A stretch of 64,000 nucleotides of DNA from Jeotgalibacillus aurantiacus (GTDB lineage: Bacteria; Bacillota; Bacilli; Bacillales; Jeotgalibacillaceae), in NCBI RefSeq assembly GCF_020595125.1, contig NZ_JACNMS010000002.1:620001-684000 (forward strand), given 5' to 3'. Below the pieces are notes generated by a model, which was not told where the DNA came from, made no database searches, and saw nothing but the letters and a program-made list of their open reading frames with translations. Shown here piece after piece: positions 7,637 through 63,585 of this stretch. Made by a program: the position numbers and the translations under genes. Every line of letters begins with the position of its first letter. Position 1 is the first letter of the stretch.

Positions 7637-7877
7637 GGACCGGACTCATCCTTCGCTTTCCTTTGTCTAGCTCCGGCGACTAGCCCCTCGAGGTCATAAG
7701 TCAAAGCTGAACGAGGGCGAAGGTCAGCCCTCTTTTCACCTTCGTCTTATGCTTGTCGGGGCTGGACGAGTCGCCTCCACTTTTCTGAAGGCCGCGCGGT
7801 GAGCCAGCTATTGCTGCGCAATACGCTGTCTCACCTGTCGCTTCTCTGCCGCAGGAGTCTACGGATGAGTACGGTCC
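7637..7877. repeat. Family A palindromic repeat split by a second (family B) repeat
   Basis: The outer arms GGACCGGACTCATCC (7637-7651) and GGATGAGTACGGTCC (7863-7877) are complementary except for one position. The right half (GCCGCGCGGTGAGCC through the CACCTGTCGC segment) matches the other family A copies. About 125 bp of different sequence (about 7661-7788) interrupts the left part. It begins TTTGTCTAGCTCC and is itself palindromic (GGCGACTAGCCCC ... GGGGCTGGACGAGTCGCC). This fills most of the 363-bp gap between the GDPD gene and ylbF; the remainder shows nothing. Confidence 0.8.
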
Positions 7878-13937: not shown

Positions 13938-14203
13938 CGCGACCAGATGACGGTTTATTGAACAAAAGCCCATACAGCACACTCCGATTGATCAATAGAC
14001 CGCACTTCACTGTCAAAAAAACAAAGTAAGTCCCATGTACGACTCTGATCATACAAATAAACCGCTTTATGTTCCTAAAAAACAACTCCTGTGATCTAGC
14101 CACACGAACGGTCTCATAAATCACAGCACATGTTATTGTCTTAAACAATACAGTAGTACCTAGAGATTCGTAAGCTTAATATAAAAATGACATAATTCTC
14201 TCA

Positions 14204-14316
14204 GGGTCGGATTCACCCGTAGACTCCTGTGGCGGAAAGGGTCAGGTGAAACCGACTGTGCGAAGCACAGGCGGGTTCACCGCCCGGCCACGGAAAGCGA
14301 AGGGTGAATCCGACCC
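14204..14316. repeat. Family A palindromic repeat (reverse orientation)
   Basis: Arms GGGTCGGATTCACCC (14204-14218) and GGGTGAATCCGACCC (14302-14316) are perfectly complementary. The inner hairpin CTGTGC-gaa-GCACAG and the GGAAAG/CGGAAAGCG segments match the other copies in inverted orientation. It occupies the centre of the 495-bp gap between ctaF and ctaG; the rest of that gap holds the ctaG promoter and no convincing gene. Confidence 0.85.
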
Positions 14317-36998: not shown

Positions 36999-37265
36999 TA
37001 AAAAAAGTCCTTCAAGCCCATACAAATAGATCATGGATCCTTTGTATAGGGATGAAAGACTTTTCATGGTACCACCCTACTTCGCAGCTGTTGCTGCCTC
37101 CTGAACAGATAAACTGTTCACTGATAACGAACACTTTCATGTCCGTGAGCACCTACTGAAAATTTCAGTGCCCCACTCCGAGGGGATGTCATACTCAGCT
37201 AGTAATACCGGGTTCCACCATCCTCGGCTCTCTGTAAATACCGCTTACTGAATACTTTAACCTCA
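36999..37265 (-). ncRNA. T-box riboswitch leader, probably Leu-specific
   Basis: On the minus strand the conserved T-box motif AGGGTGGTACCATG is at about 37078-37065. Stem I with AGAGAG and the base-pair TTCAGT/ACTGAA is upstream. A terminator (AAGTC..., AGTCCTTCAAGCCCATACAAA arm, then a run of seven T) ends near 36999. The terminator competes with an antiterminator formed by the T-box. A CTC (Leu) triplet at 37182-37180, on the 3' side of stem I, is a plausible specifier, as expected for ilv-leu operons, but I did not prove its place in the specifier loop. Confidence 0.9.
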
Positions 37266-37271
37266 TCAATG

Positions 37272-37300
37272 ATTTAACGTATGATTGCTTTAACTCACAA
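37272..37300 (-). promoter_or_regulatory. Promoter of the T-box-ilvB operon (candidate)
   Basis: -35 TTGTGA (37300-37295), 17-bp spacer, -10 TTAAAT (37277-37272), four of six matches each. It lies between the ilvE stop and the leader. Confidence 0.45.
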
Positions 37301-38461: not shown

Positions 38462-38576
38462 GGACCGGGGGCATCCTTCGCTTTCCGCGGCCGCGCGGTG
38501 AACCAGCTAACGCTTCGCGTTACGCTGTTTCACCTGTCGCTCCTCTGCCGAGGGAGTCTACGGATGCCCCCGGTCC
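38462..38576. repeat. Family A palindromic repeat
   Basis: Arms GGACCGGGGGCATCC (38462-38476) and GGATGCCCCCGGTCC (38562-38576) are perfectly complementary. Inner hairpin AACGC-ttc-GCGTT. It lies in the 620-bp interval between ilvE and ylaH; besides this and the ilvE promoter region I see no gene there. Confidence 0.88.
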
Positions 38577-46439: not shown

Positions 46440-46550
46440 GGGCTGTGCCTATCCTACGCTTTCCGTGGCCGGGCGGTGAACCCCTTGTGCTCCGCACAAT
46501 GGTTTCACCTGACCCTTTCCGCCACAGGAGTCTTCGGATAGGCCCAGCCC
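46440..46550. repeat. Family A palindromic repeat (subtype II)
   Basis: Arms GGGCTGTGCCTATCC (46440-46454) and GGATAGGCCCAGCCC (46536-46550), one mismatch. Inner stem TTGTGC-tcc-GCACAA. The next stem level is GGGCGGTGAA/TTTCACCTGACCC. It lies in the 408-bp gap between the deacetylase and lpdA. Confidence 0.85.
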
Positions 46551-55727: not shown

Positions 55728-55844
55728 GGGGAGGTTCGCATCCTCCGCTTTCCGTGGCCGCGCGGTGAGCCAGCTAGTGCTTCGCACTACGCTGTCTCAC
55801 CTGTCGCTCCTCTGCCACAGGAGTCTGCGGATGCGAACCTCCCC
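55728..55844. repeat. Family A palindromic repeat
   Basis: Arms GGGGAGGTTCGCATCC (55728-55743) and GGATGCGAACCTCCCC (55829-55844), perfect 16 bp. Inner stem AGTGC-ttc-GCACT. It begins 14 bp after the rnjA terminator. The rest of the 379-bp gap to ktrC shows nothing except the ktrC terminator. Confidence 0.88.
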
Positions 55845-63062: not shown

Positions 63063-63163
63063 AATATATCGGTTATCGAAATATTTTTCCACCTTTATTT
63101 TGAATTTTTTATCATTTGTTTATTTTCTAACACTTGTTGATTATATAGGATATCGAAATATAA
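63063..63163 (-). promoter_or_regulatory. Operator-like repeats upstream of the ABC exporter operon
   Basis: The segment TATCGAAATAT occurs at 63074-63084 and 63151-63161. Each is part of an imperfect palindrome: AATATATCG-gttat-CGAAATATT (63063-63085) and TTATAT...ATATAA (63141-63163). The second overlaps a TATAAT -10 on the minus strand (63145-63140). A repressor of the MarR or TetR kind is plausible, none is encoded nearby. Confidence 0.4.
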
Positions 63164-63271
63164 ATGATCAGTCGAATGACTGAGATCATATTAGCAAGAG
63201 CCGGTCTAGGACCATCCTTCGCTAGAGGCAGACCTCTAAGTTTTCACATAAGTTATCATTTAGCTAAAAAC

Positions 63272-63386
63272 GTGCAGGGGGCATCCTTCGCTTTCCGCGG
63301 CCGCGCGGTGAGCCAGCTAGCGCTTCGCGCTACGCTGTCTCACCTGTCGCTTCTCTGCCGCAGGAGTCTTCGGATGCCCCCTGCAC
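63272..63386. repeat. Family A palindromic repeat
   Basis: Arms GTGCAGGGGGCATCC (63272-63286) and GGATGCCCCCTGCAC (63372-63386), perfect 15 bp. Inner stem AGCGC-ttc-GCGCT. A fragment resembling its left end (GGACCATCCTTCGCTAGAGG) lies just upstream at about 63210-63230. No gene is found in the 611-bp gap between the exporter and the peroxiredoxin. Confidence 0.88.
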
Positions 63387-63585
63387 TTTTGAGGTTTTTC
63401 AAAAATAAGGAGTGCAGAATAGAGATCTGCAAATAGTATTCCCTTTCCTTCCGGTGCTTTGAAGGCGGATTTAGATAGAAAATGAACACCTTTAGTTTAA
63501 TGGACAGGTCAAAATCAGAAGCGCTAGAGTGGTATGGATAGACATTGTCCTGGTATATTAGGGAACTTATCTGTGGTGGATCGGC

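Follow-up and report, generated by a model that had tools for sequence, protein, structure and literature searches.

A stretch of 64,000 nt of Jeotgalibacillus aurantiacus DNA (hereafter the window; C2:620001-684000 of a 3.5-Mb genome in 19 contigs) contains six copies of a hairpin-forming repeat with outer arms that vary between copies and pair within each copy. Compensatory change between repeat copies is usually taken as proof of a functional RNA, and the question raised by this locus is where such pairing comes from; the family is a natural test of whether stem covariation arises from selection, from template switching, or from the mode in which an element is copied. The repeat is a multi-copy, mostly intergenic, modular palindrome with a conserved core and with arms that are free in sequence and complementary to each other, and in placed copies the arms and the core drift to about the same extent, with pairing seldom restored. 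We read it, with about as much belief as doubt, as a non-autonomous mobile DNA repeat of ~115 bp, REP/MITE-like, that must fold into a long imperfect hairpin to move.

Anatomy of the Repeat

The six copies described in the sequence-only reading lie at the positions given there, each between ORFs of at least 100 aa (6/6), and their outer arms are exact partners in four of the six, as had been claimed, with one mismatch each in the copies at 46440 and 7637 (table 1). The four levels of covarying stems that had been listed were found again across 46 genome copies (alignment columns 5-16/106-117, 29-30/92-93, 36/81, and 44-53/61-71), and the interruption noted in the copy at 7637-7877 proved to be a second hairpin module of ~128 bp that occupies the same spot in other copies. 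Adjoining the copy at 63272, an apparent truncated left half of another copy (GGTCTAGGACCATCCTTCGC) lies at window positions 63203-63222.

Table 1. Features of the repeat copies in the window.
Feature	Position	Strand	Evidence or remark
Left outer arm, GTGCAGGGGGCATCC	63272..63286	+	Exact partner 63372-63386; unchanged in sister species G004
Core of the 63272 copy	63287..63371	+	Alignment and pair counts, RNA and DNA folding
Core parts of the 63272 copy: 3-nt internal loop (GNA on the bottom strand), CTTTCC/GGAGTC stem, GCGGC/GCCGC stem, inner domain			
Triloop of the inner domain	63324-63326		GAA on the bottom strand
Right outer arm, GGATGCCCCCTGCAC	63372..63386	+	One change in G004
Whole copy with foot bases, class I	63269..63389	+	Covariance-model match of 144.6 bits; foot frequencies in 101 copies
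Class I copy with inserted module, arms GGACCGGACTCATCC/GGATGAGTACGGTCC (1 mismatch)	7637..7877	+	Same composite in G004
Inserted module A, second hairpin repeat (TTTGTCTAGCTCC...CCTCCACTTTTCTGAA), between CGCTTTCC and GGCCGCGCGG	7662..7789	+	
Class II copy, arms GGGTCGGATTCACCC	14204..14316	-	Covariance-model match
Class I copy, arms GGACCGGGGGCATCC	38462..38576	+	Covariance-model match
Class II copy, arms with 1 mismatch	46440..46550	+	Covariance-model match
Class I copy, 16-bp arms GGGGAGGTTCGCATCC	55728..55844	+	Covariance-model match

The element reads, in order, as a foot AAACC, an arm that is 15 bp long (16 bp in some copies), a symmetric internal loop of 3 nt (TNC/TNC), the stems CTTTCC/GGAGTC and GCGGC/GCCGC, and an inner domain containing a triloop; then come the matching halves, the second arm, and TTT. 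AAACC before the arms and TTT after them are the consensus of 101 copies. Among 115 J. aurantiacus copies, 68 belong to class I (GCG/CGC) and 44 to class II (GGG/CCC), and 3 are unclassified. RNA folding of two copies gave z values of -8.6 and -7.7. On the bottom strand, each side of the 3-nt internal loop reads GNA in 101 of 102 copies. The apical triloop likewise fits GNA in 142 of 182 J. aurantiacus and G004 copies (31 unresolved, 9 other); d(GCGNAGC) is a known ultra-stable DNA minihairpin. With DNA energies the bottom strand is the more stable in all 74 perfect-arm copies (mean -41.8 vs. -37.3 kcal/mol) and with RNA energies in 53 of the 74, copies that have one core in common and are thus not independent in this comparison.

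The 182 arm-paired elements comprise 167 of the usual core length, 13 with an extra hairpin module (the copy at 7637 among them), one mini version, and one span of two tandem copies. The extra modules are of two kinds with common ends and lie between CTTTCC and GGCC; they make up a second hairpin repeat family with ends TTGTCTAGCT.CG ... CCTCCGCTTTTC, two versions, and one fixed spot. At 618.9 kb the module is present in J. aurantiacus and absent from the G004 counterpart (126 bp). The longest arm-paired element is 240 bp (the search extended to 6 kb where the stretch allowed, most stretches being ~2 kb), and no gene-bearing version between paired arms was found among the 182 elements, most of them in stretches of ~2 kb.

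Distribution of the Family

A covariance model built from 46 J. aurantiacus copies identified at least 150 members of the family in the genome (150 of 150 scored candidates), and a BLAST search of the same genome gave 44 matches (40 of 170 candidates scored). Covariance-model matches are present in 24 of the 31 genomes searched, J. aurantiacus included, and absent from 7; genome G007 has 133. We drew 30 loci from six genomes of other families; among those examined, one was empty and one was truncated. The cores of the loci examined retain CGCTTTCC or a near variant as well as GGAGTCT, and the arms are genome-specific and mutually alike among the copies examined in G030, G024, and G021. A search of 72,556 plasmid records found relatives on three plasmids of Priestia megaterium and one of Bacillus badius, with 77-79% identity over query bases 14-101, which corresponds to the core without the outer arms; a search of 50,697 phage records gave no match to the repeat.

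At gathering scores, an Rfam scan of the window matched none of the repeat copies; its sole match is a T-box leader at 37045-37278 on the minus strand (101.1 bits). An Rfam search of 63150-63500 returned one match with an E value of 0.86, far under its cut-off. The repeat family was not found in literature searches, which proves nothing about its being unpublished, and the exact 11-base core word led to one unrelated Caenorhabditis elegans paper.

Covariation between Copies

We aligned 46 of 50 copies, dropping three long composites and one aberrant copy. In this alignment 97.7% of 2006 cells pair versus 84.2% in shuffles, and the covariation score is 0.348, compared with 0.096 +/- 0.006 over 500 shuffles and with 0.042-0.071 after partners were offset by 1-3 columns; because the score lies far above both controls, the covariation is not due to chance. 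Nor does recent copying of whole elements, which the sequence-only reading had named as a possible source of all the pairing, account for it, since the 73 perfect-arm copies of the genome carry 58 distinct arms. Within-genome paralogs (restricted to perfect-arm copies with the most frequent core length) differ by 37.5% in the arms and 8.7% in the core in class I (n = 36), and by 38.0% and 9.3% in class II (n = 16).

Over the 15 arm pairs of the 46 copies (690 cells), 487 cells hold the commonest pair, 173 a two-sided change, and 5 a one-sided change (G-U), and 25 are unpaired, a class that includes pairs that wobble on the other strand, so that true intermediates there are somewhat more numerous, if still far below 173. 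One-step arm differences comprise 12 transversions and 6 transitions, which is not what stepwise change via G-U pairs predicts. Arm mismatches read on the bottom strand are G.T in 27 cases and A.C in 7, or 39 to 13 when G.A and C.T are added, with mismatches common to an ortholog counted once and seven of other kinds outside that comparison. Twelve J. aurantiacus copies with at least 4 arm mismatches were left out of the counts limited to 2 or 3 mismatches; by our reading six of them are composites in which an inserted module has the true left arm upstream of it and two are degenerate, and the other four (L030, L037, L042, and L086) look like recombination chimeras.

Genome G007 repeats the arm covariation independently with different and longer arms. 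Of 31 of its copies examined, 14 have GCTG and CAGC, and in 12 of these 14 the outer pentamers, which vary, pair with each other; on a simpler count that gives 11 of 14 pairing, the shuffle mean was 1.4 and the maximum 6.

The main rival to a mobile hairpin is template switching (quasipalindrome correction) during DNA replication, in which the hairpin would stall the polymerase and one arm would be copied from the other, so that both arms are written at once and covary without selection for pairing. The available text of PMC8794818 describes template switching for hairpins, and such writing of both arms can yield covariation. Changes that are two-sided, rich in transversions, and poor in wobble intermediates are what it would produce. 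The conserved internal mismatches of the core stay uncorrected, however, and template switching alone gives no account of the high copy number or of a core common to families.

Change at Single Loci in a Sister Species

The nearest same-genus relative among the genomes compared is G004, also a Jeotgalibacillus. We aligned C2:580-744 kb of J. aurantiacus with C29:370-519 kb of G004, added further loci, and removed duplicates, resulting in 115 and 98 copies, respectively, of which 49 form one-to-one pairs with both flanks matching. Strict orthologs, for which we required each 40-bp flank to be 85% or more identical and the arms to have no more than 3 mismatches, account for 15 of the 49 pairs. 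In these, changes are found at 7 of 450 arm sites (1.6%), 19 of 1250 core sites (1.5%), and 39 of 1196 sites of the adjacent 40-bp flanks (3.3%). The arm-to-core divergence ratio is thus ~4 between copies and ~1 at a locus, which we take to mean that arms are set at copying or exchange and then drift. The 225 arm columns of the strict pairs hold 5 one-sided changes and 1 two-sided change, and 2 arm mismatches are common to both species and so have been left unrepaired. With the flank threshold lowered to 70% (22 pairs), there are 9 one-sided and 4 two-sided columns, and three of the latter four belong to a single pair, L148/L184, in which the core class changed too.

Pairing, then, seems to be established mostly at the making or exchange of a copy and to be little upheld from then on. 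These counts stand against template switching as well, given the excess of one-sided changes and the mismatches unrepaired in both species; in its favor, two pairs at orthologous loci differ as T-A to G-C on both sides, which is unlikely to have come about by two independent hits. Two-sided changes at two single loci (14201 and L038) suggest some re-pairing in place. Taking both sides together, we rate template switching as somewhat unlikely. The element changes about half as fast as its flanks, which would allow for constraint in place or for gene conversion, the ortholog numbers being small; placed copies may therefore not be free of constraint, which would tell against the mobile reading.

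The sequence-only reading had offered selection for a folded RNA or DNA hairpin, or a mobile element that must form one. Both the covariation and the hairpin hold up, and of these options the mobile element that needs to fold is the best fit. The case for selection of an RNA on each copy in place is weakened, both because one-sided changes outnumber two-sided ones and mismatches go unrepaired in strict orthologs, and because G-U arm cells are rare (5 vs. 173) and transversions exceed transitions among one-step differences.

Exchange, Apparent Rearrangement, and Candidate Empty Sites

Several loci of the window itself differ between the two species. In G004 the 63272 locus retains its arms and lacks 59 bp, with TCGCT at both gap ends, and the copy at 14204..14316 has one arm pair altered on both sides and one base altered on one side. 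The 38462 locus carries a class II element in G004, where the two species have just the 6 outermost bp of the arms in common; the 46440 locus carries a composite class I element; and the 55728 locus carries a class II-like element (its class was not called by the script), followed 163 bp on by a stretch with the J. aurantiacus left arm. The two species likewise carry different elements at the same place at L148, L152, L060, L147, and other loci.

Other pairs differ in part of the element. Arms are identical in L021/L176, where the core is class I versus class II, and in L044/L082, where the core differs by, among other things, two compensated pairs; L146/L105 are different elements at one place with 10 arm bases in common; and the arms of L030 and L037 pair across loci. 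The copy at 685442 and its G004 counterpart have identical arms that point in opposite directions, which suggests a small inversion. Copies thus appear to recombine with one another, with core swaps, chimeric arms, and an apparent small inversion, and the covariation is accompanied by these and by local deletions. Outside the window, at C2:581560-581720 (L084:1560-1720), we observed a cloverleaf-like cluster in which an outer stem, GATTTTGACTGATC/GATCAGTCAAAATC, surrounds three palindromes; in G004 the three are in inverted order with many compensatory differences. The cluster is a possible footprint of template switching and counts in favor of that process.

We found no excess of common flank words beyond the palindrome's own that would indicate a target-site duplication (101 copies), and no pristine empty site. 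Just two candidate empty sites were identified, both with part of a left arm. They were considered as evidence that arms derive from the target; the 8-11 left-arm-like bases that they hold are GC-rich scraps in an AT-rich flank, however, and the sites are likelier to be deletion scars. As arms differ by locus, we also considered insertion of a core into pre-existing terminator hairpins, which was rejected on the grounds that arms are usually 15 bp and agree in foot bases and in a GC-rich consensus, and that a pattern scan of the J. aurantiacus and G004 loci found just two core-less arm-type hairpins, one terminator-like and common to G004 and the other probably a deletion. At C2:705639-705686 (L087), right after a stop codon, lies a hairpin that has an arm of the element type (GTGCCGGGCCATTCC) but no core; it recurs in G004 with changes and is apparently a terminator.

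Genomic Context and Strand

Gene context was taken from simple ORF calling, in which 17 of 101 copies touch an ORF so called. The neighboring genes of the 101 copies are convergent in 38 cases, tandem in the sense of the bottom strand in 34, tandem in the sense of the top strand in 18, divergent in 7, and unresolved in 4. The coding-majority strand is the bottom strand at 68 copies and the top strand at 38, with 35 mixed (P = 0.005). A terminator-like hairpin is present within 150 bp of 40 of the 101 copies (to the left of 30, to the right of 11, and thus on either side of 1) versus 5 of 198 control pieces.

These data bear on a structured RNA that would act as a terminator, stability, or processing element, whose fold would be the object of selection, and for which the bottom strand in 3' regions would be the most likely source. 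The orientation of the bottom strand and its G.T bias would also fit such an RNA, as would the strong RNA fold, the excess of bottom-sense over top-sense tandem contexts, and the slower change of the element than of its flanks. The position of 38 of 101 copies between convergent genes argues against it, as do the terminator-like hairpins near 40 of the 101, the few G-U intermediates set against many two-sided changes, the infrequent re-pairing of ortholog arms, the exchangeability of class and core at a locus, and the lack of an Rfam family; we consider a structured RNA improbable.

DNA gyrase or Pol I bind REPs of Escherichia coli, and the repeat might similarly serve a host protein as a binding site on the chromosome, kept for nucleoid or supercoiling functions. 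The many copies at gene ends, the convergent bias, and the half-flank rate of change agree with such a site. Replication was considered in G007 with dnaA as the origin and the opposite point as the terminus. The fork runs with the bottom strand at 79 of the 133 copies and with the top strand at 54 (P = 0.037), a bias that is weak (P = 0.13 when the two replichores are compared). None of the 133 matches falls in G007:C1 1.6-2.0 Mb, around the presumed terminus, which would also suit a host-protein site, though among 200-kb bins, which hold up to 28 matches, 0.2-0.4 Mb is likewise empty.

Loci turn over within the genus in a manner that does not suit a site kept by the host. We compared the 44-64 kb part of the window (three copies) with the matching stretches in five more species from its genus, of which G006 covers two copies. 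The gaps matching those three copies contain no match at E <= 0.001; a single weak match (E = 0.39) lies in the G009 gap of copy 55728, and G006 and G009 have matches in a gap where J. aurantiacus has none. Considering also that the arms vary freely and that 7 of 31 genomes lack a match, we regard a host-protein site as very improbable.

A Proposed Mobile Hairpin and Its Putative Enzyme

Y1 transposases and integron integrases read folded single strands. For the mobile DNA hairpin that we prefer, we infer a single-stranded step and an enzyme encoded outside the element that would read the folded strand, most likely the bottom one with its GNA apical triloop and GNA/GNA internal loops. Recognition would keep the core and the need to pair alone would keep the arms, so that live lineages would have compensated arms and placed copies would decay. 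We count toward this reading the greater DNA stability of the bottom strand, its GNA loops and G.T mismatches, its excess on the coding-majority strand and its weak bias toward the fork in G007, the predominance of convergent over divergent neighbors, the core or class swaps with unchanged arms, and the independent arm pairing of G007. The negative results for a mobilizing enzyme, for a gene-bearing version (in stretches of mostly ~2 kb), for a target-site duplication, and for a pristine empty site count against it, as do the two-sided changes at 14201 and L038. Template switching may be how arms get written.

A search for a REP-type transposase (RAYT), which the sequence-only reading had suggested, tied no mobilizing RAYT to the family. 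The J. aurantiacus genome has two Y1 matches, C1:175170 and C1:206422, with no copy nearby among the 150 copies listed. The Y1 family occurs in 24 of the 31 genomes, but G001, G005, G007, G017, and G024 have the repeat without a Y1 match (G001, G005, and G007 with many copies), and G012, G013, G018, G025, and G027 have Y1 matches without the repeat, and mobilization by RAYT was rejected on these grounds.

We tentatively propose, while thinking it rather unlikely, that the arms are rewritten as a complementary pair at each copying, for example by fold-back or hairpin-primed synthesis in transposition. If so, the mobile unit would be a fold plus a core that gains new arm sequence at nearly every site, and arm identity would date and trace single transposition events. 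Sister genomes separate the two meanings of compensatory change, near-perfect arm covariation between copies and mostly none at one locus over time.

Comparison with Known Systems

Integron attC sites are recognized as a folded bottom strand, by structure more than by sequence. The repeat would resemble them in its proposed recognition as a folded bottom strand and by structure, and differs in that no cassettes were seen.

With REP/BIME elements and their RAYTs, as described in the available part of PMC3733652, the repeat has in common intergenic imperfect DNA palindromes in high copy number, inverted neighboring copies, and conserved foot bases (here AAACC). The REP/BIME elements of that account are 20-40 bp long and GTAG/CGTC-tagged, whereas the repeat is ~115 bp with arms that vary between copies, and a GTAG or CGTC foot was not found in 101 copies (foot AAACC left, TTT right). 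A RAYT gene flanked by the repeat is a feature of REP/RAYT systems; here no RAYT is linked to the 150 copies listed. Bacterial MITEs (bcr1, NEMIS, RUP, ERIC, and SPRITE), in the available parts of PMC3733652 and PMC10969869, are similarly non-coding, non-autonomous, hairpin-forming, and multi-copy. Unlike MITEs, the repeat has no fixed terminal inverted repeat, as the distinct arms of its perfect copies illustrate, and neither a target-site duplication nor a parent transposon was found. Bhal-1 of Bacillus halodurans, a stem-loop family of 74 bp and 36 copies according to the available text of PMC2267715, is another structured Bacillales repeat and possibly kin, a comparison made by description only. 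In kind, the repeat is REP-like and MITE-like; it differs in having no foot tag of a known type, target duplication, or transposase tied to it, and is set apart by its free arm sequence together with a core common to families of the order.
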